From Bacteroidota bacterium (GTDB lineage: Bacteria; Bacteroidota; Bacteroidia; Flavobacteriales; Schleiferiaceae), in NCBI GenBank assembly GCA_024742495.1, contig JANSYJ010000015.1:1-33485 (forward strand): a stretch of DNA of 33,485 bases, in the 5' to 3' direction. This document shows, piece after piece, positions 2,199-31,206 of this stretch; the first letter of the stretch is position 1, and each line of letters begins with the position of its first letter. The notes under the pieces are model-generated. The model saw nothing but the letters and a program-made list of their open reading frames with translations, was not told the origin of the DNA and did no database searches. Position numbers and translations under genes: made by a program.

Positions 2199-3056
2199 AT
2201 GAAATCACTATTTAAATCGCCCCAAGGCAAGCAAGAAATCTTGAGCCTTTACGATCAAAAACTAAATGAGCTCAACATTGACTCTGACTACCTTCAAGTG
2301 GAAACGAGCTTTGGCAGAACAAACATTATAGCTACCGGGGATCCATCCAATCCTCCTATCATCTTAGTGCATGGATCTAATGGTTGTGCCCCCATTGCAT
2401 TGGAAACCTATCCGAACTTAAGCAAGTCATTCAGGGTATTTGCGGTAGATGTAATTGCTCAACCGAACAAGAGTGCGGAAACTAGACCGAGTATGAAAGA
2501 TGACTCGTATGGAAAATGGATGAATGAAGTCATTGACCAACTCAAGATTACCGATGTAAGACTGGCCGGATTTTCATTTGGGGGACTGGTTATTTTAAAA
2601 ACCTTGGAGTATGATGAAAGTAAAATCAAGGAAGTATTTCTATCCGCTCCAGCCTACATTGTAAATGGAAACCCGATAAAAGCCTTGTTTAAATTCTTCA
2701 TTCCCATGAGGAGGTACATGAGTACGGGAAAAATCAAATTCGTTGAATCTTTTTTGAAAGAGGTCTTTAGCGATAGGGATGAATTCGCCATTAAGTACTT
2801 GTCGAAAGTGTTTGAGCATTTTACCATGGACTTTAGTCCGGTCCCAGTGATATCAGACAAAAAAGCAAAGCTTATAAAAACCCCGATAAACCTCATTGCG
2901 GCAAAGCAAGATGTTCTGTTTCCGGGCGAGAAAATGATCAAGCGAGCCACGCAAATATTTCCATCCTTAAAAGAAAGTGTTTTGCTGAAAAACTCCAAGC
3001 ACGTTCAATCGGCACAAGACAATCGCTTCATTGAAAACCTGATCTTAGAAGCTTAG
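2199..3056 (+). CDS. Alpha/beta hydrolase
   Basis: A 285-residue serine hydrolase of the alpha/beta fold. Oxyanion-region HGS is at 58-60 (ILVHGSNGC), the nucleophile elbow GFSFGG places Ser126, Asp238 lies in AAKQDVLFPG and His268 in NSKHVQ, completing the triad. No signal peptide, so cytoplasmic; the substrate cannot be read from sequence. It begins 6 bases after the DUF6326 gene and is followed after 20 bases by the glycine-zipper gene, consistent with one operon running to about 4198. A broken copy of its first ~36 codons lies exactly 600 bp upstream, so the locus has been duplicated once. Start ATG chosen by spacing and by alignment to the relic. Confidence 0.85.
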   Translation: MKSLFKSPQGKQEILSLYDQKLNELNIDSDYLQVETSFGRTNIIATGDPSNPPIILVHGSNGCAPIALETYPNLSKSFRVFAVDVIAQPNKSAETRPSMKDDSYGKWMNEVIDQLKITDVRLAGFSFGGLVILKTLEYDESKIKEVFLSAPAYIVNGNPIKALFKFFIPMRRYMSTGKIKFVESFLKEVFSDRDEFAIKYLSKVFEHFTMDFSPVPVISDKKAKLIKTPINLIAAKQDVLFPGEKMIKRATQIFPSLKESVLLKNSKHVQSAQDNRFIENLILEA

Positions 3057-3076
3057 TACGGCCTTAATTGAAACCG

Positions 3077-3259
3077 ATGAAGATGAAAAAGGAGCAAGAA
3101 GAGAAATACATAGCTAGGGGCATCGCCCTTGGAACGGCTATTGGTGCAGCCCTGGGAGTGGCAATGAACAAGATCGCACTTGGTATTCCCATTGGAATTG
3201 CCATTGGAGCAGCTATTGGTTATTCCATGCAGAAAAAGAAAAACGAGGATGCCAGCTGA
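3077..3259 (+). CDS. Glycine-zipper membrane miniprotein
   Basis: About 60 residues: a charged head (MKMKKEQEEKY), then two glycine-zipper helices with G/A every third or fourth residue (GIALGTAIGAALG and GIPIGIAIGAAIG) separated by a short MNKIA linker, then a lysine-rich tail. The two helices resemble each other, suggesting internal duplication. Such zippers pack tightly in membranes and occur in small membrane or envelope proteins. The frame also allows a TTG start at 3068, but ATG 3077 or 3083 is preferred. It lies between two hydrolase genes in the same operon. Function unknown. Confidence 0.6.
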   Translation: MKMKKEQEEKYIARGIALGTAIGAALGVAMNKIALGIPIGIAIGAAIGYSMQKKKNEDAS

Positions 3260-3307
3260 TAGGTGCGGGCAGTTCCATTTCAATGAATGTTTAACAAATA
3301 GTATAAA

Positions 3308-4198
3308 ATGCTCAAGCAAAGCCTAAGCTATTACTTACTGCTCTTGGTCTTAAAACTAAAGGGCGTAAAAAAAGACTTTAGTCAAGACCCCATAAATTTC
3401 CGAAGGATAAGAAATGGAGATATTCATGCTCCCGGAGTGTCCTTCTTTTCTGGAAAAAAGCTTAGCATTTTCAAAATAGCAGCAAGCACCATTACGGAGC
3501 TAATGGGAGCTAATACTTCTAAAGAATTAATTCTGATGGTACATGGAGGCGCCTTTATTTCCGGACCTACCGATTTACATTGGAAGGTGCTTAAAAAGAT
3601 TGCCGCTAAAACCGGGCAGACCGTTTGGTTGTGCGATTACCCAAAAGCCCCTGAAAATCAAATTAGCGCCATCTCAATGAATATTGACAAGGTGTATGAA
3701 AGAGCTTTAGAGGAATATCCACCCGACAGGATTAGCCTATTGGGAGATTCGGTGGGAGCTACTTTAATAATCGCCTTAACGCAAAGACTGATCCAAGGGA
3801 ATCAGGAACCACCAAGCAAGCTTATTTTAGTTTCTCCTGTAATGGACGCTAGCATGTCTAATCCAAAGATTGCGGAAATAGACGTTAAAGACCCCATGCT
3901 ATCACAGGCAGGAGTGCTAAGCGCAAAGAAAATGTGTACTGGGGAGATAGATTTGAAAAACGTAATCATATCCCCATTGTACGCTAGCTTTAATGGATTT
4001 CCGAAGACAACCCTGTTTTTGGGACAAAAGGATATCACCTATCCAGACCAGCAATTGGCTGTGAAAAAGATGGAAGCTGAAGGCGTTAAAGTAGAACTAA
4101 TCTTGGGCGAGGATATGCCGCATATTTGGCCATTTCTGCCTGTGATGAGTGAAGCAAGATTGGCCTTAGATCAACTTATAAATCGATTGAATACCTAA
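3308..4198 (+). CDS. Alpha/beta hydrolase, acetyl-esterase / hormone-sensitive-lipase type
   Basis: A 296-residue esterase-like protein. It has the family's HGG oxyanion motif (VHGGAF, 79-81), nucleophile Ser148 in GDSVGA (GDSAGG in most relatives), an acid at Asp242 in LGQKD or Asp247, and His272 in MPHIWP. These features place it in the HSL/AlnB-like branch acting on short-chain or aromatic esters; the real substrate is unknown. The N-terminus has a hydrophobic patch (YYLLLLVLKL) that may be a membrane anchor rather than a cleaved signal. It starts 48 bases after the glycine-zipper gene, probably as the last member of that operon. Confidence 0.85.
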   Translation: MLKQSLSYYLLLLVLKLKGVKKDFSQDPINFRRIRNGDIHAPGVSFFSGKKLSIFKIAASTITELMGANTSKELILMVHGGAFISGPTDLHWKVLKKIAAKTGQTVWLCDYPKAPENQISAISMNIDKVYERALEEYPPDRISLLGDSVGATLIIALTQRLIQGNQEPPSKLILVSPVMDASMSNPKIAEIDVKDPMLSQAGVLSAKKMCTGEIDLKNVIISPLYASFNGFPKTTLFLGQKDITYPDQQLAVKKMEAEGVKVELILGEDMPHIWPFLPVMSEARLALDQLINRLNT

Positions 4199-4322
4199 TA
4201 TTCTAAGCCTTAGTTTAAGCTTAGCTTAAAAATGAACTGTGAACCGCTATAAGCATCATAAAAGTGGTAAGCGATTGAACTTTAGCCTTGAAATAAATAA
4301 TGAAATACAGCTACAATAACTG

Positions 4323-4898
4323 ATGAATACGGTTGAAGAATTTTGTCCTGAGGGCAAGAAGGATTGGCGTAAATGGCTCGACCTAAACCATGAAAAGAAG
4401 GAGGCCGTTTGGGTCATATTCCACAAAAAGAATGCTCCAAAGCATAACCTGACCTGGAGCGAGTCTGTTGATGAAGCCTTGTGTTTCGGTTGGATCGACA
4501 GTACCAAAAGGACCGTAGACAGCACCAGGTACAAGCAATACTTCACTAAAAGGAAAGCAAAGAGTAATTGGTCTAAAGTGAATAAAGACAAAGTAAGAAG
4601 TTTAATCGATCAGGGACTTATGCGAGAAGCCGGCTACAAAAGCATCGAAGTCGCTAAGGAGAATGGTTCTTGGACAATCTTAGATGGAGTTGAGGCCCTA
4701 ATAATTCCTGAGGATTTGAAAGAAGAACTTGCAAAATCTCAAAAGGCGGAGGACTACTATAAGGCACTATCAAACTCTACTAAAAAAATGCTTTTGTACT
4801 GGGTGGTTTCGGCTAAAAGAGAAGAAACGAGACAGAAAAGAATCAGGGAAATCGCAGCGAGCGCTAGTAGAGAAGTGCTGCCAGAACATTTAAGATAA
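4323..4898 (+). CDS. YdeI/OmpD-associated family protein
   Basis: A 191-residue soluble protein with hallmark segments of the YdeI/OmdA family: W..WL..NH...E.VWV.F.KK near the start, EALCFGWIDS at about 52-61, the arginine/lysine-rich ..F..RK.KSNWSK.N block at about 79-87, and a C-terminal domain with a (K/R)..R..EI motif. Relatives have been linked to antimicrobial-peptide or bacteriocin tolerance, but the biochemical role is unknown and context here adds nothing. The stop codon overlaps the ATG of the next frame (TAATG), suggesting coupling with the esterase gene. The 124-base gap before it contains no obvious terminator. Confidence 0.8.
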   Translation: MNTVEEFCPEGKKDWRKWLDLNHEKKEAVWVIFHKKNAPKHNLTWSESVDEALCFGWIDSTKRTVDSTRYKQYFTKRKAKSNWSKVNKDKVRSLIDQGLMREAGYKSIEVAKENGSWTILDGVEALIIPEDLKEELAKSQKAEDYYKALSNSTKKMLLYWVVSAKREETRQKRIREIAASASREVLPEHLR

Positions 4899-4924: not shown

Positions 4925-6178
4925 ATGAATACAACAAGCAATTTAAGAAGCATAAACATCCTTGTTTTTAGTTTGCTCATTCACTTTTGTGCACTGGCGC
5001 AAAAAGAAGGCAGCTATCTAAAACAGCTAGGCTTAAAGGATAGTCTTTACTCCAAGACCCTCAGTGAAACACGAACCATTTACGTTCAACTGCCAAATGG
5101 CTACAATCCTGAGAGCCAAAGAGAATACCCGGTGGTTTATCTATTAGATGGTGACGTCATGCTTCCTTCACTTAATACCGTTTATGAGACCTACTACGGT
5201 GGTTTTATGCCCGAGATGATTCTCATTGCTATTGCCAATGACCATGATCGCACTAAAAACCTGACGCCAACTACCATCACCTCCAGGCGTGGAATGCCTT
5301 TTCAGCAAGAGAATGGCGAAGCCGCCACATTTGCCAAATTCATAAAAGAAGAACTCATTCCTTTTGTGGAGCACAAATATCGGGCAAGCTCTTACAGAAC
5401 TTTAGTGGGCCACTCCTACGGTGGTCTTTTTGTTTGCTATGAGTTTATCAATGACCCAAAGCAATTTGCCAACTATTTGGCCATTGACCCAAGCTTGGAT
5501 TGGGATGATCAATATCTGCTGAAGCAAGCCCAAAAATCACTGCCTACCGCAGAACACGAGGGCAAAGCCATTTTTATATCGATGAGCGGGCAACTGCATA
5601 TGCAAGATCCAACTATTACCATCGACAATCTGATGCAGGATACTTCTGATTTCACCCTTTTCTCACGCTCCAACGTGCAGTTTACAAATCTGCTGAAGGA
5701 AAAGGGCCAAGGGCTGAAATCCTATTGGAAGCATTATCCAAACGATTTGCACGGAACGGTTCCACTACCTTCCATGCTAGACGGAATGCTGGCACTTTTT
5801 CAATGGTATCAAATGGAGCAAACCGATAAGTTCAATGTGCCAGACACACCCAAAGACGATTTGTATGAAATTATGAAATACCGGGCTCAAAAACTCGAAA
5901 CGCATTTTGGCCATCCTGTTCCACCTTATCCTGAAGACCTGATGAATATGAGTGGCTATATGTACCTGGACATGGGGCAAGTCGCTAAGGCTAAAATGTT
6001 TTTTGAGCTTTGCATTGAGTATTATCCAAGTAGTGCCAATGCTTTCGACTCCTTGGCCGATTATTACGAAAGTCAGAACGACTATGCCAATGCCTTAAAG
6101 GCTATTTCTAAGGCCTATGCATTAAGTGCTAGCCCTTATCACAAGGATAGAATGGAGGCACTTGAGAAAAAGAAATAA
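4925..6178 (+). CDS. Exported esterase (alpha/beta hydrolase, esterase-D/Fes type) with TPR tail
   Basis: The precursor has a signal peptide (NILVFSLLIHFCALAQ) followed by an esterase domain of the IroE/BesA type: YLLDGD, then nucleophile GHSYGG, then DPSLDWDD and an HGTVP histidine. Residues after about 340 form one or two TPR-like helical hairpins (Y.DLGQ..KA..FFE...Y and SQNDY.NALKAISKAY). Family members cleave ester bonds of siderophores or acylated sugars in the periplasm; this substrate is unknown. ATG 4925 is chosen because it gives a compact signal peptide after an A-rich stretch; ATG 4898, overlapping the previous stop, would add nine residues and is the alternative. Confidence 0.8.
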   Translation: MNTTSNLRSINILVFSLLIHFCALAQKEGSYLKQLGLKDSLYSKTLSETRTIYVQLPNGYNPESQREYPVVYLLDGDVMLPSLNTVYETYYGGFMPEMILIAIANDHDRTKNLTPTTITSRRGMPFQQENGEAATFAKFIKEELIPFVEHKYRASSYRTLVGHSYGGLFVCYEFINDPKQFANYLAIDPSLDWDDQYLLKQAQKSLPTAEHEGKAIFISMSGQLHMQDPTITIDNLMQDTSDFTLFSRSNVQFTNLLKEKGQGLKSYWKHYPNDLHGTVPLPSMLDGMLALFQWYQMEQTDKFNVPDTPKDDLYEIMKYRAQKLETHFGHPVPPYPEDLMNMSGYMYLDMGQVAKAKMFFELCIEYYPSSANAFDSLADYYESQNDYANALKAISKAYALSASPYHKDRMEALEKKK

Positions 6179-6367
6179 GCCGGATTTTTCTACCAACAGA
6201 ATGGTCAGCGAAGGCCGGCAAATACGCATTGATAGCGGCCATAAATGATCCAGGGCAAAGAAAATAGCAATCGGAATGGCCTATTCATACCCATAAAAAG
6301 AACTTAATAAGACTACTCAGAATCAATATACCAGTCACTAATCTGATAACCATCAAAAAAAAATAAC

Positions 6368-7945
6368 ATGCTTAAATATAGCTACCTTTTAACAGGACTT
6401 CTCTTTTGCCTGTTCCTAAAAGCTCAAGGCCAAACTGAGTTTAGAGTTTACCTAAAAGATAAAGGCTCCAGTCTGGATTTACTCGATTCGCCCGAAGGAT
6501 TTCTGTCAAGCGCGGCACTTAACCGTAGAGCGCTTCAAAATATTCCCATTAAAAGGAGCGATTTACCCATTGCCAAAGAGTACTTGCAAGTCCTGAAAGA
6601 TTTAGGTGCTACACCTTTGGCGCAATCCAAATGGCTGAACTATGTCTATGTCAGTCATCCACAAGCCCAATTAATTGCCTCCTTACCTTTTGTGGAGCGT
6701 ATTGAATTTCCAAAAGGACATCAAAGTTTCTTGTGTGGAGTAAATTCTGGCGATACCCTGGATTATGGATTTGCCCGAGGGCAGATTGAAATGCTGAATG
6801 GACATTTACTGCATGAAAAGGGCTATACCGGAACCGGTATTAACATAGCTGTAATTGATGCTGGTTATGAAGGCTTTCTGCAAAGCTCTGCTTTTGATAG
6901 CCTGCGCAACTCACCAAGACTCTTAGGTACTTTCAACTATCTAACTAATGACACTAACGTGTTTTCGGGCTGGGGCAGCCATGGTACCAGTGTATTGTCT
7001 ATTATGGCAGCAAACCTTCCCGACACTATGGTTGGAACCGCTCCCGACGCAAACTATTGGTTGTTCACCACGGAAGATATATATCAGGAAACTCCACTAG
7101 AAATGGATTATTGGGTAATGGCAGCGGAGTTCGCAGACAGTGTTGGGACGCATGTTATTAACACTTCACTTTCTTACCAAACATTTGATAATCCACAGGA
7201 TAACTACAGCTACAGCGACATGGACGGCAATACCACTGTAATTAGCAAAGCGGCAGATATGGCTGCTTCAAAAGGCATTTTAGTGATTGCTAGTGCAGGA
7301 AATGAAGGAGAAAGCCCGCAGCCTCATATTGCAGCTCCCGCAGATGGTGATTCTGTGCTCACTATTGGAGCGGTAAGCTGGCAAGGAGACTATGCCCCAC
7401 TTTCCAGCATCGGCCCCAGCTTTGACGGAAGGGTGAAACCCGATGTGATGGCTCAGGGCTATCCTACCACATTGATTGATGGAACAGGGAGTTTCAACGC
7501 TGAATTTGGTACTTCCTATGCCGCACCCTTGGTAGCCGGCTTGGCAGCCTGTTTAATAGAAGCTTATCCTGCAAAGCATAGCGAAGAAATTGCTAATTAC
7601 ATTCGTCAATCGGCGCATCTATTCGCTAGTCCAAATGACTCTATGGGTTACGGTATTCCCGATTTTCAACTGGCCTTAAGCCTAAACGCTCCGATATATT
7701 TAGTTCAGGAAACAGAATATATGCTCTATCCTAATCCTGTCCAAGATCATATTATCATCGATGCCAAAACTCAGAAAAACTGGCAAGCCGAACTCCGCAT
7801 ATTTGATTTAGGCGGTAATTGCCTTGTGCAGAAGGATATTCAAGCTTATGATGCTTATCGGGCCAAGCTAAACTTAAAACCAGGGACTTATATTTTAATT
7901 CTGGCCGGCGATATCAATGGGGTTTATAAATTTCAAAGTCGGTAA
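6368..7945 (+). CDS. S8 family serine peptidase with T9SS type A sorting domain
   Basis: A 525-residue secreted subtilase. Signal peptide at 1-21 (TGLLFCLFLKAQGQ), an N-terminal prodomain to about 120, then the catalytic triad: Asp164 in IAVIDAGY, His205 in GSHGTS, Ser383 in GTSYAAP, with oxyanion Asn312 in SAGNEG. The last ~75 residues begin LYPNPVQDHI and end in a beta-rich domain, the classic C-terminal signal for the type IX secretion system, which carries proteins across the outer membrane. It likely degrades proteins at the cell surface or outside. It stands alone, with 189 bases before it and a 138-base gap after it to the regulator relic. Confidence 0.92.
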   Translation: MLKYSYLLTGLLFCLFLKAQGQTEFRVYLKDKGSSLDLLDSPEGFLSSAALNRRALQNIPIKRSDLPIAKEYLQVLKDLGATPLAQSKWLNYVYVSHPQAQLIASLPFVERIEFPKGHQSFLCGVNSGDTLDYGFARGQIEMLNGHLLHEKGYTGTGINIAVIDAGYEGFLQSSAFDSLRNSPRLLGTFNYLTNDTNVFSGWGSHGTSVLSIMAANLPDTMVGTAPDANYWLFTTEDIYQETPLEMDYWVMAAEFADSVGTHVINTSLSYQTFDNPQDNYSYSDMDGNTTVISKAADMAASKGILVIASAGNEGESPQPHIAAPADGDSVLTIGAVSWQGDYAPLSSIGPSFDGRVKPDVMAQGYPTTLIDGTGSFNAEFGTSYAAPLVAGLAACLIEAYPAKHSEEIANYIRQSAHLFASPNDSMGYGIPDFQLALSLNAPIYLVQETEYMLYPNPVQDHIIIDAKTQKNWQAELRIFDLGGNCLVQKDIQAYDAYRAKLNLKPGTYILILAGDINGVYKFQSR

Positions 7946-8058
7946 TTATAAAAGGCGCATTCATTTTACTATCGACCCGATTCACAATTACTAGCACTTC
8001 TTTGCTTTCTATACTAAGTATAGTTCTAGCCCCTACTTCCTTTATAAAAAGCTTAGGC

Positions 8059-8067
8059 TATCTTGCA
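8059..8067 (+). promoter_or_regulatory. Old promoter -7 box of the regulator relic
   Basis: GGCTATCTTGCA here matches GGCTACCTTGCA at 14555-14566, in front of the intact TolB_N/TPR/AraC gene, at about the same distance from the ATGCCAGCC start. The upstream block near 14531 (CGTCC) is not recognisable here. If still active, it would drive the TonB receptor gene that now follows. Confidence 0.35.
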
Positions 8068-8083
8068 GTTCTAAACTGATGCC

Positions 8084-8245
8084 ATGCCAGCCACTACCCT
8101 GGCCTTAAAGCCTTTTTTAAATAGGAGTTTCCATTGGAAGAAAGAATATTTCTGTGATGGTACTACTGAGAATATTATAAATGACCCGGCCAATACTAAT
8201 GGGCTAAAAGTTATGTTGCTCTCCAATTTGCAAGCTTTTGAGTAA
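8084..8245 (+). pseudogene. N-terminal relic of a TolB_N/TPR/AraC regulator
   Basis: A 54-codon reading frame starting ATGCCAGCC, as in the intact gene at 14581. It reads MPATTLALKPFLNRS...EYFCDGTTENIIN...LKV against MPATTLAVLPFVNMS...EYFSDGITEEIIN...LKV, with no gap for 43 codons. It then drifts and stops at TAA 8243-8245. The remaining ~540 codons of such a gene are absent; the TonB receptor frame begins at 8238, inside the last codons. The matching C-terminal relic lies right after the receptor at 10825. Whether the small frame is still translated, for example to couple translation of the receptor, is unknown. Confidence 0.75.
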
Positions 8246-10802
8246 TCTGCTACCATTGGAGAATCTATTCAACAAGCGTATAGGGTCGAAATTTTTCTGG
8301 ATAGTTGTCTTCATCTTTCTTAGGACATGCCTGTCGCATGGAAGTGCTTTTACCAATGTTTTGGAAGACAACAAGCTTAGCTACCTGGAATTAAGTGACA
8401 CCAGTACTATTTCATCAAAAGCTAATCAAGAAGCTAAGGGAAACACTGCAAAAGGGCTAAGCCAAACTATTCGTGGACGGGTAATAGATGAGGAGAGCAA
8501 ATTACCCTTGTTTGGAGTAACCGTAAAGATTAAGGACTCCTCTCCTCCTATTGGTGCTACTACGAACATTGATGGTAATTTCCGGATTGAAGAGGTGCCA
8601 GTTGGGCGAGTAAATCTGCAACTTTCATATATCGGTTATGAGGAAAAAATAATCCCAAATATTGTAGTGAATTCGGCCAAAGAAGTGGTACTAAACCTCA
8701 GCCTACATGAATATTCTACCAAAATGGGCGAGGTAACTGTAGTTGCACAAATGGACAAAGGCACTCCCATAAATGACATGGCATTGCTTAGTGCCAGATC
8801 AATTTCTCCAGAGGAATCAAACAGATATGCAGGACCTTTTAACGATCCTACCCGAATCATGTCGAACTACGCAGGGATAGCTACAACGCAAGATGGTAGC
8901 AACGACATTATCGTTCGTGGTAATTCACCGAAATTTATACAATGGAGATTGGAGGGGATACAAATCAGCAACCCAAACCACTTCGCCAATCAAAGCGGGA
9001 TCGGTACAGGAGGCATCAGTGCCCTTAATAATAATCTGCTGGCTACTTCAGATTTTTACTCCTCCGCATTTCCGGCAGAATATGGTGATGTCTTATCAGG
9101 CGTATATGATATTAAATTAAGATCCGGAAACAATGAACGCTTTGAAGGCGTGTTTGGACTGGGAATCTTGGGTACAGACATTACACTAGAAGGCCCGCTC
9201 AAAAAGGGCTATGCCGGTTCTTACCTAGTCAATTACCGTTACTCTACTATCACTTTAATGAGCATGCTCGGCTTGCTGAATCGCAGTGGAGCTACAAATT
9301 TTCAAGATGGTGCCTTTAAAATTACGCTGCCTTCTGAAAAGCTAGGTACTTTCTCAATCTTTGGTTTAGGTGCTTATAGTGGATTTGATTTAGAGAATAT
9401 GTCGGGTATAGATGCTATAGGGTCGCCTGGTCACATCGCTCAGTTGAACAGGCTGTCAAAAGATCATTCTACGAGATCTTATCTATTTAACACTGGTGTC
9501 AATCATTGGATCAACCTATCCAAGAATAGCTATCTCAATACTTCTATTATATACTCTACCGATGGTATCAATGATGATGTACAAGCTAGATCCATTTCCC
9601 CTACCCAAGCCTTGGGTTCGGCTTACAGATTTTTCGAAGGAAATTTGAGCAAATCAAGCTACCGGGGAGCCGTAAGCTTTCATCACAAATTCAATAATCA
9701 GCATAAGCTACAGGCAGGATTCAAATATGCCTATTTCAGCTATGACTATTTCCAGAGTCTGCAGAGAGATACGGTTTCCGCCCCGAGATTGCTCGCTGAT
9801 TTTGATGAGCAAATGAGCACTCTCAGGAATTTCATCAGCTGGAAATATCAGCCCTTCAACAAGCTCACAATTATTACCGGCATTCATCAGATGAATGATT
9901 TCTACAATCAAAACCGAACCATAGAGCCGCGATTTGCCATGGATTGGGAGCTAAGCCCCAAAATTGATCTCACCCTTGGATATGGTAAGCATAGCACCCT
10001 GGAAAATGCGCATAACTATTTTGCCAAAGTATCCAATAACAATGGAGCACTTACAGAACCCAACCGCAATATGGGCCTGCTCAAAGCCGACCATTACTCG
10101 CTTGCAATTGAGAAACGATTTCGGTCTGACCTAAAAGCAAAATTAGGATTGTATTACCAGTGGCTGTATGATTTACCAGTTGCCGCTGACAGTAGCTACT
10201 ATGCCACCATTAATGAACGAATAGACTATGACTACGTAAGTCTTGTAAATGAAGGGCAAGGAAGGAATTATGGAGTGGAGCTAACTATCGAGAAGTTCTT
10301 TAACAACAGCTATTACTTCTTGATCAATATGTCCCTCTTTCAATCGGAGTATAAAACCCTAGAAGATAGGTGGCGAAACACAGCCTATAATAGCGATTAT
10401 ATAGCTAATCTATTAGTTGGAAAGGAATTCCTTAATCTTGGAAGAAAGAAAAATCAGGCGCTCACTATTAACTTAAGAGTTTTTATGGGCGGAGGAAGAA
10501 AAATAATACCGCTTAGGAGAAATGATCAAGGCCAGCTAAATGTGGACCCAGCCAATGATCAATACTGGGACTATGACAAAGCCTTTGAATCATCCCTTGA
10601 CGACCTGTATCAGATTGATATCTCCATGAGCTATAAGTGGAATAATCTAAAAACAACGCAGGAGTTTTACTTCAATATTTCCAATATCACTGCTGCAGAA
10701 GGAAGAATATCGGAGTATTACGATGAAAGCGAAGCTGATAATATCGGCTATGTTACACAGATTGGACTCTTTCCCAATCTCATGTATAAGGTCTATTTCT
10801 GA
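8238..10802 (+). CDS. TonB-dependent receptor (SusC/FecA-like) with carboxypeptidase-like domain
   Basis: An 854-residue outer-membrane receptor. Order: signal peptide (FFWIVVFIFLRTCLSHGSA, about 19-37), a low-complexity linker, a carboxypeptidase D-like beta-sandwich (about 77-157; IRGRVIDEES..PLFGVTV...NIDGNF...YIGYEE), a TonB plug (about 175-300), then a barrel ending in a terminal phenylalanine (LMYKVYF). It should import an unidentified ligand using TonB/ExbBD energy. No in-frame ATG precedes the signal peptide; the best start is TTG 8238, overlapping the end of the regulator relic by 8 bases. The gene lies between the two halves of that relic, suggesting it replaced or was inserted into the regulator. 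No DUF4249 or SusD partner follows. Confidence 0.88.
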   Translation: MSNLLPLENLFNKRIGSKFFWIVVFIFLRTCLSHGSAFTNVLEDNKLSYLELSDTSTISSKANQEAKGNTAKGLSQTIRGRVIDEESKLPLFGVTVKIKDSSPPIGATTNIDGNFRIEEVPVGRVNLQLSYIGYEEKIIPNIVVNSAKEVVLNLSLHEYSTKMGEVTVVAQMDKGTPINDMALLSARSISPEESNRYAGPFNDPTRIMSNYAGIATTQDGSNDIIVRGNSPKFIQWRLEGIQISNPNHFANQSGIGTGGISALNNNLLATSDFYSSAFPAEYGDVLSGVYDIKLRSGNNERFEGVFGLGILGTDITLEGPLKKGYAGSYLVNYRYSTITLMSMLGLLNRSGATNFQDGAFKITLPSEKLGTFSIFGLGAYSGFDLENMSGIDAIGSPGHIAQLNRLSKDHSTRSYLFNTGVNHWINLSKNSYLNTSIIYSTDGINDDVQARSISPTQALGSAYRFFEGNLSKSSYRGAVSFHHKFNNQHKLQAGFKYAYFSYDYFQSLQRDTVSAPRLLADFDEQMSTLRNFISWKYQPFNKLTIITGIHQMNDFYNQNRTIEPRFAMDWELSPKIDLTLGYGKHSTLENAHNYFAKVSNNNGALTEPNRNMGLLKADHYSLAIEKRFRSDLKAKLGLYYQWLYDLPVAADSSYYATINERIDYDYVSLVNEGQGRNYGVELTIEKFFNNSYYFLINMSLFQSEYKTLEDRWRNTAYNSDYIANLLVGKEFLNLGRKKNQALTINLRVFMGGGRKIIPLRRNDQGQLNVDPANDQYWDYDKAFESSLDDLYQIDISMSYKWNNLKTTQEFYFNISNITAAEGRISEYYDESEADNIGYVTQIGLFPNLMYKVYF

Positions 10803-10824
10803 GACTAGAGCGCTGTGAAACATC

Positions 10825-10971
10825 GAGGACCTTTTCAAATTATTTCAGACTAAATCAGCTATAGCATTAGCGCTGGCATAGGAAAGCGGCTTTGGCTCCA
10901 AACGATATTCAATAGATTCTTAGAAAATCGAAGGGATGAGAGCTAAGGCATTGTTGAAATCAAATCATGTT
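10825..10971 (+). pseudogene. C-terminal relic of a TolB_N/TPR/AraC regulator (AraC helix-turn-helix)
   Basis: Frame from 10825 reads EDLFKLF.....ALALA*ESGFGSK...*KIEGM..K.LLKS. The intact regulator ends ISLIGLAYESGFNSK...KKEVGM..KEFLKS. Two in-frame stops (10879, 10921) and a one-base loss after TCCAAA show decay. DNA similarity continues to about 10971, where the intact gene would end. It begins 22 bases after the TonB receptor stop. With the N-terminal relic at 8084-8245 it frames the receptor gene; the central ~490 codons of the regulator are missing from both sides. Confidence 0.75.
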
Positions 10972-11022
10972 TTAGCCAGCACAGAAATTATAGACCTCTG
11001 TATAAGAACGGAATTACATTTC

Positions 11023-11058
11023 CGAACGACTCACCACTCTATTCACTTCACATTTGCA
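11023..11058 (+). promoter_or_regulatory. Two-block promoter motif CGAAC-N21-CACATTTGCA
   Basis: CGAAC at 11023-11027 and CACATTTGCA from 11049, offset 26 bases as at 503, 16506, 22627 and 31171. It precedes the outer-membrane barrel gene by about 105 bases. The leader between contains a small hairpin (CCTAG/CTAGG arms near 11083-11098). Confidence 0.55.
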
Positions 11059-14463: not shown

Positions 14464-14530
14464 CCATGGTTGAGGCTGGCCCTGGAAATCTACAGGCCGC
14501 TCACTCAGGAATAGCTCCTAATCTCCAATT

Positions 14531-14566
14531 CGTCCGTTTTTTTAAAATGAACTGGCTACCTTGCAT
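14531..14566 (+). promoter_or_regulatory. Probable promoter of the first TolB_N/TPR/AraC gene
   Basis: CGTCC at 14531 and TACCTTGCA from 14557, offset 26 bases, a degenerate form of the CGAAC/CACNTTTGC motif with one T fewer. The -7 part is conserved in front of the relic at 8084 (TATCTTGCA). The start codon is only about 16 bases downstream. Confidence 0.35.
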
Positions 14567-14580
14567 TTTCAAACCTCACC

Positions 14581-16362
14581 ATGCCAGCCACTACTTTAGC
14601 AGTACTCCCTTTTGTAAATATGAGTTCCAATTCGGAGAATGAATATTTTAGCGATGGTATAACAGAAGAAATAATAAATGCCCTAGCTAAAATTGAAAGC
14701 CTGAAGGTAACCTCGCGAACCTCATCTTTCTTTTTTAAAGGACAATCGGTTCCGCTGAAAGAGGTGGCTCAAGCGCTAGATGTTTCCGTAATTCTTGAAG
14801 GCAGTGTGCGCTCTGCTGGCAACACGGTTCGGATTACGGCCCAGTTAATACAGGCGGAGGATGACTTTCATTTTTGGTCGGAAAGCTGGGATCGAAAGCT
14901 GGAAAACATCTTTGAAATACAAGATGACATAAGCTTGCTCATCGCTGAAAAACTAAGGGAGCAGTACGGACATTTTGAGATAGCCGAACATCTGGTTGAG
15001 AAGCAAACCGAAAGCATCGATGCCTATGAGCTTTCGCTAAAAGCTAAATTTCATTTTAATAAATGGAACCCGGATGATGCCAAGAAATCCATAGAACTAT
15101 GGAAAAAGGCATTGGCTCTAGACCCAAATCACATTCCATCATTAGTTGGCATAGCCGATGCCTATGGCTTTTTGGGGGTTACCCAGAATATGCCTTATGA
15201 CGAAGCTTGGACCAATACAGCTGAGTTTACCAATAAAGCATTGGAACTCGACCCCAATAACGCTCCGGCACATTACCAGCTAGCAAATATTTCATTCTTC
15301 GTAAAAGCCGATTTTCAGGAGGCCTACACACAGGTGCAACGATCGGTAGAGCTTAAGCCCAACTACGCAGAAGCACAGCAGTTTACAGCCTTTTTACACC
15401 TTTTAGTGGGAGATAAGAAGCAAGCTTGGAAACACCTTGAAGTGGCCTTGGAAATTGACCCTCTAAACCAAGAAACCATTTTTTACAAGGCCTATTTTCA
15501 TCACATGAATAGTGAATTTGAAACCGCACTTAACATTTTGAATGATTGTCTTGCCAAAAACCCGCAAAACCTACCCGCAATCATTACCAAGTGCTATTCG
15601 CTACTGAACATGAAAAGAGTGGATCAGGCATTGGCTATTTTAGAACAAGCGCCCGAAGGTTTTATTCCAGCAGGAGACGCTTTGGGCATAAGCTGCCTAG
15701 CCCATATTATCGCTAAGGATGAAAGACAAGCCGACAATTATTTAGAAGAGCTTTTTAAACAAGCTCAAAGTCCAATGGCCTTTCAGGAGCATTCTTATCT
15801 CATGCAAGCTTACGCTCAAAGGGAAGACTATGATAAAGCCTTTGACTGGTTGGAGAAAGCCATTAGTATGAAGTCATCAATACTCTTCCTTGGCTTTGCC
15901 GGACCTTTGGCCAGTAATCTCCGAAAGGATGCCAGATATAAAGCCTTTAAAACCAAACTTTATGGGCAATTGCCTAAAGCTAAGCAAGAGAAGGAAAAAA
16001 ACGCTTTGCTGGATAACGAAACGGCCTCCAATTACTCTACTACGCTTCTAGCTTTCATGAGTGAGGAGCAGCCCTATCTCACTCCTGATCTCTCGCTTCG
16101 CTCATTGGCAGATCGAATTGAGATTCACCCCAATCAACTTTCGTGGTTGTTGAACGACAGGCTAGGTAAGAACTTTAACCAGTTTATAAACCATTACCGG
16201 GTAGAGCACTTCAAGCACCTGGCCGTAGATCAATCCAATGCACATATTTCGCTAATTGGACTGGCTTATGAAAGTGGTTTTAACTCCAAAACGGTTTTCA
16301 ATACTTACTTTAAAAAAGAAGTAGGAATGACGCCCAAGGAATTTTTGAAATCCAGTAAATAG
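14581..16362 (+). CDS. TolB_N/TPR/AraC fusion regulator, copy 1
   Basis: A 593-residue cytoplasmic protein with three parts. Residues 4-115: TolB_N/FlgO-like domain (TLAVLPFVNMSS....EYFSDGITEEI and GNTVRITAQLI). About 130-430: TPR repeats (ALALDPNH, ALELDPNN, VELKPNY, ALEIDPLN). About 500-593: AraC-type helix-turn-helix (LSLRSLADRIEIHPNQLSWLLN and IGLAYESGFNSKTVFNTYFK). No signal peptide or membrane span. The DNA-binding end indicates a transcription factor, with TolB_N and TPR as sensing or protein-contact modules; ligand and targets are unknown. The same architecture occurs at 27149, and a broken copy frames the TonB receptor at 8238. An MDR gene and a DUF4386 gene follow. Confidence 0.85.
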   Translation: MPATTLAVLPFVNMSSNSENEYFSDGITEEIINALAKIESLKVTSRTSSFFFKGQSVPLKEVAQALDVSVILEGSVRSAGNTVRITAQLIQAEDDFHFWSESWDRKLENIFEIQDDISLLIAEKLREQYGHFEIAEHLVEKQTESIDAYELSLKAKFHFNKWNPDDAKKSIELWKKALALDPNHIPSLVGIADAYGFLGVTQNMPYDEAWTNTAEFTNKALELDPNNAPAHYQLANISFFVKADFQEAYTQVQRSVELKPNYAEAQQFTAFLHLLVGDKKQAWKHLEVALEIDPLNQETIFYKAYFHHMNSEFETALNILNDCLAKNPQNLPAIITKCYSLLNMKRVDQALAILEQAPEGFIPAGDALGISCLAHIIAKDERQADNYLEELFKQAQSPMAFQEHSYLMQAYAQREDYDKAFDWLEKAISMKSSILFLGFAGPLASNLRKDARYKAFKTKLYGQLPKAKQEKEKNALLDNETASNYSTTLLAFMSEEQPYLTPDLSLRSLADRIEIHPNQLSWLLNDRLGKNFNQFINHYRVEHFKHLAVDQSNAHISLIGLAYESGFNSKTVFNTYFKKEVGMTPKEFLKSSK

Positions 16363-16439
16363 CAATTACGCCTAGAACCGCGGAAAAAGCGCGGAAGAGC
16401 CTTGAGCAGTTTAAGTCTTTAAAACGCTACAAGTCATTG

Positions 16440-16447
16440 TACTTTTG
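16440..16447 (+). promoter_or_regulatory. TAnnTTTG box (possible second promoter)
   Basis: TACTTTTG is an exact match to the Bacteroidota -7 consensus TAnnTTTG. A CTTTA at about 16418 could serve as -33. It lies about 130 bases upstream of the MDR gene at 16577, which also has a nearer CGAAC-type motif. Weak, single-site evidence. Confidence 0.3.
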
Positions 16448-16505
16448 TGCAATACATAGGCTTATCGGTTCCCTTTTATAATCTAGAACCTTTGCCACTA
16501 AATCA

Positions 16506-16541
16506 CGAACTCCCAGCCCTCAATTCCACAGTTCATTTGCA
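16506..16541 (+). promoter_or_regulatory. Two-block promoter motif CGAAC-N21-TTCATTTGCA
   Basis: CGAAC at 16506-16510 and TTCATTTGCA from 16532, offset 26 bases. The second block differs from CACNTTTGC at its first and third positions. It lies 36 bases upstream of the MDR/DUF4386 gene pair. Confidence 0.5.
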
Positions 16542-16576
16542 TCGTAAATCAGTTTTTAAAACAAAAAACAAATACG

Positions 16577-18764: not shown

Positions 18765-20192
18765 ATGATCAAAGAAATTTCTAAAAAGCAGGTTTTAGAT
18801 AGAATTCGTTTCGAAAATCCATGGTGGGTTGATGGTAAAATAGAAGATGACTATCAACAAATGCCGAGAAGGCTTTATTTCGAATTATTTAAACCACTGG
18901 TATATGAACGAGACATAAGACGAGCGGTAGTTCTTATGGGGCCAAGACGTGTTGGTAAATCCGTGATGTTATATCATATGGTTCAGGATATGATTGAAAA
19001 TGGGGCTGACCCAATGAAAATCATATTCATCACAATTGAAAATCCCATTTACAATAACATTGGCCTGGAGCAACTTTTTTCATTTGCTAAGGAAGCTACG
19101 GGACTCAAGGATAAAAGTGACTGGCACATCATTTTTGATGAAATTCAATATTGCAAGGATTGGGAGGTACACCTCAAGTCACTTGTAGATAGCTACAGAA
19201 AAGATAAATTCATTGTATCAGGTTCAGCCGCTGCTGCTTTAAAGTTTGCCAGTAATGAAAGTGGAGCAGGACGCTTTACCGATTTCCTATTGCCGCCATT
19301 AACCTTTAACGAATACATCTCGCTTAAAGGGCTGGATAGACTGATAAAAACAATCGACATAACTTGGAACAACAAGATAGTCGACTTCTATTCGACAGCT
19401 CATTTAGAAGAATTGAATAAACATTTTATTGATTACATAAATTTTGGAGGATACCCAGAGGTCATCTTTTCAGAAAAGATTCAAGCCAACCCAGGAAGAT
19501 ACATAAGACAAGACATTGTTGACAAAGTCTTGCTCCGAGACCTCCCGAGTCTTTATGGTATATCCGACACAAGGGAGCTTAATTCCCTATTTACAACTAT
19601 TGCCTACAATAGTGGTGGTGAGTTCTCATTAGAAACTTTAAGTAAACAATCTCAAATACCCAAAAACACGCTTAAAAAGTACATAGGGTATTTGGAAGCC
19701 GCTTATTTGATTAAGCAAGTTAAACGGATTGATCAAAGTGGAAAACGGTTTAAAAGGGATAATTTTTTCAAAATCTATTTAACCAACCCCTCTCTTCGTA
19801 GTGCTCTTTTCTCACCAATTTCTTCAACCGACGAGATGATGGGTAATATGGTAGAAACGGCCATTATTGCTCAATGTATGCATAGAGATTGGTTTACACC
19901 TTGGTATGCGAGATGGAGCAATGGAGAAGTAGATATGGTAGGGCTTAGTGAAACACTTAAGCCCTTATGGGCTCTTGAAATTAAGTGGACTGATAGATAT
20001 TTTGAAAAGCCCAAGGAACTTAAAAGTTTAATTAAGTTTTGCAACGAGAATAATCTGCAAAGCCCTATTGTAACGTCAATAAATAAGGAAGGGAATATTG
20101 AATACAATGGATTAAACCTTCAATTCATACCCTCTTCGTCCTATGCTTATACCGTCGGCAAGAAAACTCTTGAAATGAAAAAGAATAAATAA
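18765..20192 (+). CDS. AAA_14 / DUF4143 ATPase, copy 1
   Basis: A 475-residue P-loop ATPase. Walker A GPRRVGKS at 59-66, Walker B IIFDEIQ with Asp125-Glu126, sensor-like VSGSAAAAL at 151-159, then a DUF4143 C-terminal half that closes with a nuclease-like GEVDMV...LEIKW pattern, reminiscent of PD-(D/E)xK folds. Such proteins are common, often horizontally carried, and their role is unresolved. The gene looks more AT-rich than its neighbours. A close paralogue follows at 20823 after a 630-base non-coding spacer. Both sit between fragments of one DUF4386 gene. The start ATG follows an AT-rich leader with no clear TAnnTTTG box. Confidence 0.87.
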   Translation: MIKEISKKQVLDRIRFENPWWVDGKIEDDYQQMPRRLYFELFKPLVYERDIRRAVVLMGPRRVGKSVMLYHMVQDMIENGADPMKIIFITIENPIYNNIGLEQLFSFAKEATGLKDKSDWHIIFDEIQYCKDWEVHLKSLVDSYRKDKFIVSGSAAAALKFASNESGAGRFTDFLLPPLTFNEYISLKGLDRLIKTIDITWNNKIVDFYSTAHLEELNKHFIDYINFGGYPEVIFSEKIQANPGRYIRQDIVDKVLLRDLPSLYGISDTRELNSLFTTIAYNSGGEFSLETLSKQSQIPKNTLKKYIGYLEAAYLIKQVKRIDQSGKRFKRDNFFKIYLTNPSLRSALFSPISSTDEMMGNMVETAIIAQCMHRDWFTPWYARWSNGEVDMVGLSETLKPLWALEIKWTDRYFEKPKELKSLIKFCNENNLQSPIVTSINKEGNIEYNGLNLQFIPSSSYAYTVGKKTLEMKKNK

Positions 20193-22555: not shown

Positions 22556-22626
22556 GGCCCGGCAATTTTTTCATTGATTATAAAACTAGTTCAGAAATAT
22601 AATCTCGAACCTGAGTCCTTGAAATC

Positions 22627-23681: not shown

Positions 23682-23824
23682 CCAAAGCTTTTGGTCTCCA
23701 ATTATAATCCCGAACCTAAGTAATGAGATACAGGACTTGCAGGGCTAAGGCTACCAATAGTTTTGCCCCGGTAAATGTGAAGAACGCGAAACTCACAATC
23801 TTAAAAATAAACAAAGCCAATCCA

Positions 23825-26156: not shown

Positions 26157-26999
26157 ATGAAAAATCCATCCATACTCTTAATGACTTTCATTATTGCTCT
26201 TCTAAGTTCCTGCACCAAGGTGGTAGACTTAAAGCTCAATGAACCCGAAAGCAAAATTGCCGTAGAGGGTTTCATATCAAACCAAATTGGGGGAAGCTTT
26301 GTGAAACTGGCTTATACCAAGGGCTACTTGGCTTCTGAGGGTCCCGAGTTTGTAAATGACGCTCAAGTAAGTGTGAGTGATAGTAAAGGAAATCTCACGC
26401 TTTTCACAGCAACAGACAATGAAGAAATATACCTTCCTCCTGCTGATTTTGTAGGCGAATCTGGCGAAAGCTATACCCTGGATGTGCAATATGATGAGGG
26501 AAGCGTTTCAGCTCAGGCGCTTATGCGTGATACAGTTTTCGCAAAAAATGTAAATGTGATAAAAACCGATGTCAGCCATCCTTACCTTGAAGCGGGCCAA
26601 CATCTTATGGCTACCATCAGCAAATACCAAAAGGAAGACAGCTATTACCAGGCGGAGATTTATGTAAACGGAATAAAGAGGATGGGCACCGCCTCTGATA
26701 TTATAGTTTTTGACGATCGTTTATATGATCAAAATGATGAGCTGGAGCTTAGGATTGCCCTGTGGGCCGATGAATTGGATGAGGAAGAAAAGCCGCAAAT
26801 GGGTGATGTGCTTAGCGTGCAGTTTATCCGCATTAGCGAAGAAACCTATGCGTATTTACAGGCCCTTTCGGAGACACCCATGCAAGGTGGTCTTTTTGGC
26901 CGCACACCCGCCAATGTGCCTTCAAATATTCAAGGTGGCCTGGGATGGTTTCAGGCCAGCTCTTTCGGAAGCCCACAACATGCCCTAGTAATGGAGTAA
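26157..26999 (+). CDS. DUF4249 lipoprotein
   Basis: A 280-residue surface lipoprotein: lipobox LLSSC with cysteine at about 20, then the family signature KVVDL.L.EPESKIAVEGFIS and a beta-sandwich-like body with TDNEEIYLPP and SYTLDVQYDEG. DUF4249 proteins are encoded next to TonB receptors and are thought to be their extracellular lid or loading partner, by analogy to SusD-type pairs. The gene starts 4 bases after the receptor stop, so it is co-transcribed. It is ended by the strong hairpin at 27036. Confidence 0.85.
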   Translation: MKNPSILLMTFIIALLSSCTKVVDLKLNEPESKIAVEGFISNQIGGSFVKLAYTKGYLASEGPEFVNDAQVSVSDSKGNLTLFTATDNEEIYLPPADFVGESGESYTLDVQYDEGSVSAQALMRDTVFAKNVNVIKTDVSHPYLEAGQHLMATISKYQKEDSYYQAEIYVNGIKRMGTASDIIVFDDRLYDQNDELELRIALWADELDEEEKPQMGDVLSVQFIRISEETYAYLQALSETPMQGGLFGRTPANVPSNIQGGLGWFQASSFGSPQHALVME

Positions 27000-27035
27000 A
27001 TAGCGCTAAGCAAGCAGCATTTCAAATTTTCATAC

Positions 27036-27068
27036 ACATAAGTCGGGCTTTCCTGACTTATGTTTTTT
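27036..27068 (+). terminator. Rho-independent terminator after DUF4249
   Basis: A nine-base perfect stem ACATAAGTC (27036-27044) / GACTTATGT (27055-27063) extended by GG/CC, then six Ts (27063-27068). It closes the TonB receptor/DUF4249 operon and rules out the long upstream extension of the next frame. Confidence 0.85.
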
Positions 27069-27148
27069 GGTTTAAGCCTATTTCGTCTAATAGGGATAAT
27101 ACATCTATATTTACTCATCAAAGCGCCGTTGCACCAACCGAATATTCA

Positions 27149-28936
27149 ATGAAGTCCGAAATTCCGGAACGCTCCATTGCCGTACTTCCATTTTTAAATC
27201 TAAGTTCCGATCCAGAGGATGAATACTTTAGTGATGGAATTACCGAAGAAATTATCAATGCCTTAAGCCTAATCAAAGGCTTGAAAGTAATTGCGCGTAC
27301 CAGTGTCTTTTCCCTTAAGGGTAAGGATCTGGATGCACGTGAAATAGGAAATAAACTAGGTGTAAATCTACTTTTGGAAGGAAGCCTAAGGAAGGCTGGC
27401 AATAAAGTGCGCATTAGTGTGCAATTGGTTACCGCCGAAAACGGATTTCGAATCTGGACCGAAAAATACGATCGTGAGCTGGATGACATTTTTGCTATTC
27501 AGGATGATATAGCCAATTGTGTATTGGCGGGATTGCAACTTAAGTTAGAAGTTAACTTTACCAGTAATAATTACACCCAAAACACCGAGGCTTACCAATT
27601 ACTTTTAAAGGGAATCTACTTTTTTAGAAGAGACTTTGATGGCACCGTAAAAGCATTGGAGTATTTTAAAAAGGCTACCGAATTGGCGCCCGACTATGCA
27701 GAGGCCTATGCCTACATGGGCGAAACATTAATTCACCATGCCGCTTTTGGTATAATTTCTACTATTGATGCGCACGAGCAGGCTCGCGCTTTTGCCTACA
27801 CGGCTTTGGGCCTTAATCAATACGACCCACGCGCGCATAAAGTCCTGGCTTTTATCCACCTGTATTATGATTGGAATTGGGATGCGGCCTTAGAGTCTTA
27901 TCAAAAAGCAGTGCGTTATGGCTTGCCCAACCAAAATGACTTCATCACCTATTATTACATCTTCCTTGAAAATGATGTAGATAAAGCCATAGAAATTTCT
28001 AAAAAGATATTGGAAAGCGACCCGCTGCATTTCAAAAGCCATTGGCAACTTGGACTCAGCTATTATTTTGCCGCCCGCTTTGAAGCAGCGGTAGATGCTT
28101 TTGATAAAGCTATTGAGCTCGAACCTTCAGACAGTGAGTCTTATCACTGGAAGAGCACATCACTTGGATTTCTACAGAAGTTTGATGAAGCCAAGCTGGC
28201 CTCTCAAAAGGCCATCGAATTAAGTGAAGATAATCCGTGGTCGCACTTTTCGCATCTCATTTTAAAAGTACTATTAGGGCAAGAAAAAGAAGTTTTAAAA
28301 AGTGTAGAAAGTCAAGATTTTATGGACCCCATGGACCCTGCCCTGCTCTACGCCCTTATGGGCCTAAAGGATAAAGCCTTTGCAAAGCTGGAAGAAGGTT
28401 ATAAGGCGAAATCTATAATGATGGTTACCCTCAAAAATTATTGGATTTGGGACCCGATTCGCGATGATGAACGTTTTCAGGAAATGCTGGAAAGGATGAA
28501 TTTAGCAGAAGGTGAAAAGGATCAGCAAAGTATAAAAGGAAGAGTTCTTCCAATTTTAGGTGAGCATAAAAAAGTGAGCAGCCCAGATCCTGACACCCTG
28601 GCCACGCTTGAGCAATTAAAGCAACTTATGGAAGAAGATGAGACCTATCTCAACCCTTCACTTTCCCTGCGCGATCTGGCACAATCGCTACAAATTCACC
28701 CCAACAAACTGTCTTGGTTGATCAATGAAAATCTCGATAAAAATTTCAATGAATACATTAACAGTTGGCGTTTGACCGCTTTTCAGCGAAAAGCGCTTGA
28801 CCCTGAAAATAGTAACATAACACTATTGGGCCTAGCTTATGACAGCGGCTTTAATTCCAAAACAGTTTTCAACGAATTTTTTAAACGCTCAACCGGCCTC
28901 ACCCCAAGGGCATGGCTTAAATCACGAGAGGATTAA
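27149..28936 (+). CDS. TolB_N/TPR/AraC fusion regulator, copy 2
   Basis: A 595-residue protein with the same three-part plan as the gene at 14581: TolB_N/FlgO-like (about 8-135; SIAVLPFLNLSS....EYFSDGITEEI, GNKVRISVQLV), TPR repeats (about 140-430; ATELAPDY, AIELEPSDSES), and an AraC helix-turn-helix end (LSLRDLAQSLQIHPNKLSWLIN, LLGLAYDSGFNSKTVFNEFFK). An open frame extends upstream to 26945, but it overlaps the DUF4249 gene and crosses a strong terminator, so ATG 27149 (MKSEIPERS) is the start. Its position after a TonB/DUF4249 operon and before a DUF4386/MFS pair suggests it controls one of them. Confidence 0.85.
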   Translation: MKSEIPERSIAVLPFLNLSSDPEDEYFSDGITEEIINALSLIKGLKVIARTSVFSLKGKDLDAREIGNKLGVNLLLEGSLRKAGNKVRISVQLVTAENGFRIWTEKYDRELDDIFAIQDDIANCVLAGLQLKLEVNFTSNNYTQNTEAYQLLLKGIYFFRRDFDGTVKALEYFKKATELAPDYAEAYAYMGETLIHHAAFGIISTIDAHEQARAFAYTALGLNQYDPRAHKVLAFIHLYYDWNWDAALESYQKAVRYGLPNQNDFITYYYIFLENDVDKAIEISKKILESDPLHFKSHWQLGLSYYFAARFEAAVDAFDKAIELEPSDSESYHWKSTSLGFLQKFDEAKLASQKAIELSEDNPWSHFSHLILKVLLGQEKEVLKSVESQDFMDPMDPALLYALMGLKDKAFAKLEEGYKAKSIMMVTLKNYWIWDPIRDDERFQEMLERMNLAEGEKDQQSIKGRVLPILGEHKKVSSPDPDTLATLEQLKQLMEEDETYLNPSLSLRDLAQSLQIHPNKLSWLINENLDKNFNEYINSWRLTAFQRKALDPENSNITLLGLAYDSGFNSKTVFNEFFKRSTGLTPRAWLKSRED

Positions 28937-29054
28937 GGGCCCTTATTGTGCCCAACTTAGATGATCTCAAAACCGCAAATAAAGTCCTGAAATGTAATGC
29001 GGGACGATCCACTCACCTTATTAAGGCAGTTTTGTGGAGAATAAAGATTAAAAG

Positions 29055-31031: not shown

Positions 31032-31170
31032 GAAAATACCCCGCTGGCAGCTAGCGCGGAGATAAGCCGATAAAGGGCTTAATGTCACAAAAACAAAGCT
31101 GGGGAAATCACCTTTCTCCGCGTCCCTCTGCGAAAAAACTTTCAGCCCAAAAAGTCCCGAATCATAATCA

Positions 31171-31206
31171 CGAACGATTGGCCTCCCTTCCCTTTGCACT
31201 TTTGCC
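31171..31206 (+). promoter_or_regulatory. Two-block promoter motif CGAAC-N21-CACTTTTGCC
   Basis: CGAAC at 31171-31175 and CACTTTTGCC from 31197, offset 26 bases. It is preceded by ATAATCA. An alternative -33 TTG is at 31178-31180. The start codon is 42 bases downstream. The bases before it (about 31108-31135, CTCCGCGTCCCTCTGCG) resemble a low-complexity intergenic repeat seen in many Bacteroidota. Confidence 0.55.

Follow-up and report, generated by a model that had tools for sequence, protein, structure and literature searches.

A receptor gene between two regulator fragments

The window, the whole stretch of DNA analysed here, comprises 33,485 nucleotides from a Bacteroidota bacterium of the family Schleiferiaceae (contig JANSYJ010000015.1 of assembly GCA_024742495.1). 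It contains a receptor gene that has a fragment of a TPR/AraC regulator gene, or relic, on either side. Two intact regulators of this kind, called A type and B type below, lie elsewhere in the window (Table 1). The original prediction, made from the sequence alone, was that a single regulator had exchanged its middle for the receptor, leaving the receptor behind the regulator's promoter. Here we ask which genes the two relics came from and how the receptor came to lie between them.

By homology, the receptor belongs to the TonB-dependent (outer-membrane uptake) type. It carries a CarboxypepD_reg domain (PF13715) above the cut-off (E=1.8e-15) and, along most of the protein, shows homology to the Plug-bearing gene at 23723-26152 (E=1.3e-28). 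Pfam matches no Plug in the receptor itself, and a homologue in Cyclobacteriaceae SS2 scores 17.3 bits in this region against a cut-off of 23.9. Its start had been placed at 8238, with a 7-base overlap on the left frame. The likelier start is 8256, a TTG in the window and in a relative from another genus of the family (G009) and an ATG in one from the same genus (G002). This position is 10 nt past the stop of a 53-codon frame that begins in the left relic. Shine-Dalgarno-type ribosome sites are reported to be lacking in the phylum (PMC6847099).

That the left flank reproduces a regulator start with its upstream box, and the right flank a regulator end, is confirmed. Using blastn against 14464-16576, which spans the A-type regulator, the left flank (8020-8260) aligns with 121/172 identities (E=3e-24). 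The match runs from about 8041, with the promoter box inside it, to 8211/8212, which is codon 43 of the 14581 gene. The right flank aligns with the end of that gene at 10873-10961 with 66/92 identities (E=4e-11). Local alignment scores are 69 for the left relic and 42 for the right, and the best of 500 dinucleotide shuffles reach 24 and 27. A protein search of the window's own genome recovers the left relic (E=4.6e-8); the right relic is absent among the 7 matches listed. In G009 the same kind of search recovers both (left, E=1.4e-9; right, E=1.0e-5). The similarity to TPR/AraC regulators is thus above chance on both sides, and neither piece is a functional open frame: the left ends at codon 43, and the right contains stops and frameshifts.

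The boundaries of the relics differ from those first drawn. The left relic had been given as 8084-8245. Its roughly 43 regulator codons stand, but the match to the regulator stops near 8212; the remaining 8213-8245 belong to the receptor leader and happen to keep the frame open. The right relic had been started at 10825. The first ~40 nt past the receptor stop are in fact the receptor's own 3' flank, and the relic begins at about 10845.

Relatives and the left junction

The genome of the window (G000) was compared with G002 and G009. The receptor is 91% identical in G002 and 81-82% identical in G009, and both relics are present in each. Five of 88 genomes of the family match the receptor at E<=1e-230, these three plus G005 and G001 at 48%, and identity of at least 81% is found among the 88 only in the three. 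At the level of the class, six of 395 sampled genomes match at E<=1e-200 (the window's own and five at 52-55%). Genomes of named species (47 pattern stretches) gave nine loci: L035, taken as the same as G002:C9; four from Cyclobacteriaceae SS2 (L036), Marinoscillum MSM7 (L038) and a metagenome-assembled genome labelled Rickettsiales bacterium NP5 (L037 and L039); and four more distant ones. The original prediction had looked to close relatives for a receptor without relics, and L036-L039 provide it. Their receptors are 78-81% identical to that of the window and, by alignment, have no relics beside them. The two NP5 receptors are 100% identical and stand in Bacteroidota-type clusters, and a binning error may explain the Rickettsiales label. 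With G005 and Ekhidna as the root, the receptor tree unites G000, G002 and G009 in one clade (support 98); by raw identity the G009 receptor is closer to that of MSM7 (86%) than to that of G000 (82%).

Both NP5 contigs and MSM7 have the order B-type regulator, major facilitator superfamily (MFS) transporter, receptor, and the SS2 contig begins inside the MFS gene and continues into the receptor. A palindrome, described below, follows the receptor in these relic-free homologues. MSM7 has an A-type regulator (2740-4518), an ADH gene and another gene ahead of the B-type regulator, all on the + strand. The regulator and receptor that are joined in the window are therefore collinear neighbours in MSM7, a precondition of capture by deletion. 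An intact regulator at the empty site was seen in none of the relatives, with no cross-genome search aimed at that site. The five loci with receptors of 55% identity (L115-L119) have no regulator or MFS gene of these kinds near the receptor, and were of no use as guides to the ancestral order.

Alignment to the relic-free relatives locates the left junction. In the window and G009 alike, the spacer before the receptor is homologous from the stop codon of the MFS gene (the TAA in CTTAAAGTT). Regulator homology stops with the codons Gly-Leu-Lys-Val, exactly where the homology to the MFS stop starts. Because of this coincidence, the 53-codon frame resolves into 43 regulator codons and 10 codons of the former MFS-receptor spacer, closed by a TAA at 8243-8245. 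Its length is equal and its stop identical in G000, G002 and G009. We considered whether the receptor's signal peptide had been overprinted on regulator codons 55-76 (a match extending to 8311). This was ruled out: relic-free relatives have the same DNA before their receptor, and the extension across the TAA is spurious. A frame ending in the last MFS codons was also rejected, since homology begins only at the MFS stop. Selection on the frame as a protein was not convincing: its dN/dS for the three genome pairs is 0.45 (14 changes), 0.79 and 0.58, which looks relaxed and involves few changes. The receptor has a dN/dS of 0.13 (G000/G002), and its codons 1-70 one of 0.87.

Upstream of the relic, the box TATCTTGCAG at 8059-8068 is the sole clearly conserved stretch 5' of the start between G000/G002 and G009. 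The 60 nt upstream of the G000 relic score 20 against the A-type regulator of G009 (shuffle maximum 13), 16 against that of the window (maximum 16), and 6 against each of the Marinoscillum and NP5 B-type genes. The promoter thus supports an A-type left relic in G000 and G002. The original interpretation is supported in part: the promoter-like box and the 43 codons do precede the receptor. That this promoter drives the receptor we only infer.

The surroundings differ in G002. There, part of the S8 peptidase gene (window 7050-7841) is gone, and the left relic is preceded by about 2 kb with 461-aa and 178-aa frames, enclosed by two copies (~106 bp) of the peptidase end (L028, reverse complement, 5342-7486). 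Regulator starts occur elsewhere too. A lone one, in the same genus (L073, G001:C28, 6619-6834), is 63% identical over residues 3-65 and ends in a stop; another start lies on the - strand at the edge of an Ekhidna contig (L040, 14-160; residues 5-53, 75% identical).

The right flank, the parentage of the relics and the palindrome

The right relic lies between two pieces of DNA that resemble the receptor clusters of the relatives. The receptor's 3' flank before it (block 1) scores, in G009, 25 against SS2 and 28 against MSM7 (shuffle maxima 12 and 13). After it come the palindrome and a leader of ~140 nt, which in G009 scores 52, 59 and 48 against SS2, NP5 (L037) and MSM7 (maxima 21, 23 and 18). 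The G009 leader finds no match in the 3' flanks of seven regulators (scores 10-15, maxima 17-19). Because block 1 before the relic and the palindrome and leader after it match L036, L037 and L038, the right relic lies within receptor-cluster DNA, most clearly in G009. Behind the leader, the coding gene seems to have been exchanged: the window protein (188 aa, from 11161) and the 215-216-aa proteins of the relatives (L036 3550, L038 12780, L037 7112) have no similarity, while leader and palindrome are homologous. A decayed right relic that seemed visible by eye in L037 and L039 was not supported (scores 12-16, shuffle maxima 20-26).

In a tree of 25 intact regulators, the A group (the 14581 gene, its G009 orthologue and G019) stands apart from the B group (the 26945 type, Marinoscillum and NP5; support 100). 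Each relic set, with three sequences per side, was scored at all 47 placements in this tree and assessed by the approximately unbiased test (p-AU). The right relic places best as sister of the Marinoscillum B gene, and its five A-type placements are rejected (p-AU 0.003-0.019); some other B or neighbouring branches survive. The left relic places best on the A-group stem (p-AU 0.909) and is rejected on the Marinoscillum B or NP5 B gene singly (p-AU 0.014 and 0.015). It survives on the stem of all B genes (p-AU 0.149) and on other branches. Since several same-branch placements survive, single placement tests do not settle the origin. A joint comparison says more. Forcing both relics onto a common branch, the best being G023, costs 11.17 log-likelihood units (lnL) relative to separate placement. 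In the controls, which unlike the relic sets have one sequence per side (a difference to be borne in mind), the two ends of intact regulators cost 0-5.64 lnL (25/25 below 11.17), and those of regulators with 15% or 30% random decay cost at most 9.9 lnL (150/150 below 11.17). Two different regulators are thus the most likely sources of the two relics.

The palindrome spans 22 bp (consensus GTTCCGAATTATAATTCCGAAC). A match lies within 180 nt past the stop in 18 of the 25 regulators (p<0.02 by shuffling); these p-values are generous, because the consensus was derived from the same sites and some of the genes are near-duplicates. The seven without a match are G009_A, G004, Ekhidna_a, NP5_B, Marinosc_B, G005_c and G002_c. 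In NP5_B and Marinosc_B the MFS and receptor genes intervene, and the palindrome follows the receptor. Thirteen other gene ends in the window were scored for comparison: 12 give 10-14, and the one at 18 is the palindrome before 31248. A weight matrix scores six window sites, each before a gene, at 18.4-25.9, while 20 shuffled windows do not exceed 14.7; its training set included two of the six (16468 and 28984). A strict A-type pattern found nine sites in six of eight genomes, six of the nine directly at a regulator 3' end, and its reversed control gave a single palindromic site, registered on each strand. The B-type pattern failed as a genome-wide marker, with controls equal to the search (11+5 in G000 against 10+12 reversed), and only the stricter A-type pattern is informative. 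Literature text matches to the core GAATTATAATTC came from papers whose titles concern E. coli detection and wasps. The palindrome is likely an operator of TPR/AraC regulators acting on downstream genes.

The window also contains tandem AAA_14/DUF4143 ATPase genes of like domain layout (18765-20192 and 20823-22265).

Table 1. Features of the window that bear on the receptor locus
Feature	Coordinates	Strand	Basis or remarks
Promoter segment of A-type regulator	8041..8083	+	Alignments; upstream scores against shuffles
Left relic, start (codons 1-43) of a TPR/AraC regulator of A type (14581-like)	8084..8212	+	Alignments, protein search, tree placement
53-codon open frame	8084..8245	+	43 regulator codons and 10 codons from the former MFS-receptor spacer
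Left junction	8201..8212	+	Gly-Leu-Lys-Val codons meet start of homology to L036/L038 MFS stop
Native receptor leader (former MFS-receptor spacer)	8213..8255	+	Alignment to relic-free relatives
Receptor, 848 aa	8256..10802	+	Signal peptide-like start, CarboxypepD_reg domain, homology to 23723-26152
Native receptor 3' flank (block 1)	10803..10844	+	Alignment to L036 and L038
Right relic, regulator end (last ~45 codons) containing stops and frameshifts	10845..10975	+	Nearest to B-type regulator of Marinoscillum MSM7 (L038)
Palindrome 1, putative operator	11006..11027	+	Upstream of the 11161 gene
Secreted protein, 188 aa	11161..11727	+	No Pfam or NCBIfam match; in place of the 216-aa gene after the palindrome in L036-L038
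Intact A-type regulator	14581..16362	+	TPR repeats and HTH_18
Palindrome 2	16468..16489	+	Between A-type regulator and ADH gene at 16577
Further palindromes	22589-22610, 23694-23715, 31154-31175		Six window copies in all
Intact B-type regulator	26945..28936	+	Homology to A type from 27164
Palindrome 3	28984..29005	+	Between B-type regulator and DUF4386 / MFS genes (29055, 29759)

A probable history of two losses and its alternatives

Adjacent genes are known to undergo promoter capture, or fusion, when the DNA between them is deleted. The receptor probably acquired a new promoter in this way, and not by landing inside a single regulator; we favour this because the relics most likely derive from two different regulators. 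The simplest history, and the one we consider likely, has two losses, a deletion from the A-type regulator to the MFS stop on the left of the receptor and a separate loss of a B-type regulator on its right. The receptor would originally have been part of a regulator - MFS transporter - receptor cluster. The ancestor of G000, G002 and G009 would have had an order like that of MSM7: A-type regulator, ADH, another gene, B-type regulator, MFS, receptor. A single deletion would then have removed everything between codon 43 of the A-type gene and the MFS stop codon just 5' of the receptor. One event could make this junction because MSM7 has its A-type regulator upstream and in the same direction. 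The receptor would thereafter be read from the A-type promoter, behind the 53-codon leader frame. It would have been under a regulator promoter both times, formerly in a B-type operon and now behind the A-type box. In a separate loss, a B-type regulator between receptor and palindrome would have disappeared except for its last ~45 codons. A former B-type gene in this place fits, because a regulator just 5' of a palindrome is the usual arrangement.

Several observations weigh against this history. The relics are short (43 and ~45 codons) and decayed, and several common placements survive when each is tested singly, among them G023 (p-AU 0.509 left, 0.287 right) and the stem of the Marinoscillum and NP5 B genes (0.11 left, 0.106 right). 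Upstream of the G009 left relic, the score is only marginal against its own A-type gene (13, shuffle maximum 13) and 9 against that of the window (maximum 11). On the right, the argument rests on G009, because in the window itself block 1 (11 against SS2 and 14 against MSM7, maxima 13 and 12) and the leader (24 against SS2, maximum 18; 18 against G009, maximum 19) are weak. The right boundary has itself been rearranged, as the coding gene past the palindrome differs between the groups. None of the genomes showed an intact regulator in the interval from receptor to palindrome, and alignment scores against shuffles detected no trace of the right relic in L036-L039.

The exchange originally proposed, in which one regulator lost codons 44-548 to a receptor that took over its promoter, has the layout on its side. 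Both regulator ends stand in order and in the same orientation beside the receptor, with ~43 nt of receptor DNA on each side, and the spacing from right relic to palindrome is the one usually seen after intact regulators of this family. We nevertheless regard it as unlikely and unsupported, because the right relic rejects every A-type placement, the cost of a common branch exceeds that of all intact and decayed controls, and the DNA past the right relic belongs to the receptor cluster. A chimeric regulator, with an A-type front and a B-type end, interrupted by the receptor would suit both placements as well as the order of the parts, in clusters that are much rearranged. No such chimera occurs among the 25 intact genes, whose two ends place together, and the receptor-cluster DNA past the right relic would be left unexplained; we think it quite improbable. 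We give a similarly small chance to repeated integration or duplication, for example of MFS and receptor genes integrated between a B-type regulator and its palindrome, with a duplicated regulator end left beyond. In its favour, the closest regulator to the right relic is the B-type one that precedes MFS and receptor in MSM7, the relic adjoins a palindrome, the usual place of a regulator end, and G001:C28 contains another lone N-terminal piece. Against this, neither a flanking duplication nor a mobile gene turned up, and L036-L039 retain no detected fragment.

On the two-loss history, a receptor gene can switch its controlling promoter while fragments of two genes mimic one interrupted gene, and such a relic pair is a trap when genome history is read from a single sequence. 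The conserved palindrome beside TPR/AraC regulators is a candidate binding site to try in little-studied Bacteroidota. The rearrangement is instructive but ordinary, and the operator motif is possibly useful. A wider proposal, that these regulators are cassettes with their own palindromic operator 3' of the stop, whose reshuffling rewires uptake genes, and that the 53-codon frame is a working leader coupling translation to the receptor start, strikes us as doubtful.

Both intact regulators of the window have TPR and HTH_18 above cut-off, in common with AraC/HTH_18 regulators with TPR repeats. Their N-terminal domain, which had been called TolB_N, is left unnamed by Pfam at E<=0.01. The receptor shares its domain with TonB-dependent receptors bearing an N-terminal CarboxypepD_reg (PF13715) and differs in a Plug region below the Pfam cut-off. 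The cluster recalls the siderophore-type clusters of regulator, MxcK-like MFS exporter and TonB receptor: NF038077 is the best match of the window and MSM7 MFS proteins (E=9.8e-45 and 4.9e-57), with scores of 153 and 194, far below the cut-off of 525. The left junction is like promoter capture or fusion by deletion, in which a promoter and a few codons are left before another gene once the intervening DNA is lost. Unlike plain promoter capture, this locus carries the end of another, unrelated regulator beyond the receptor, which makes it look falsely like one interrupted gene.

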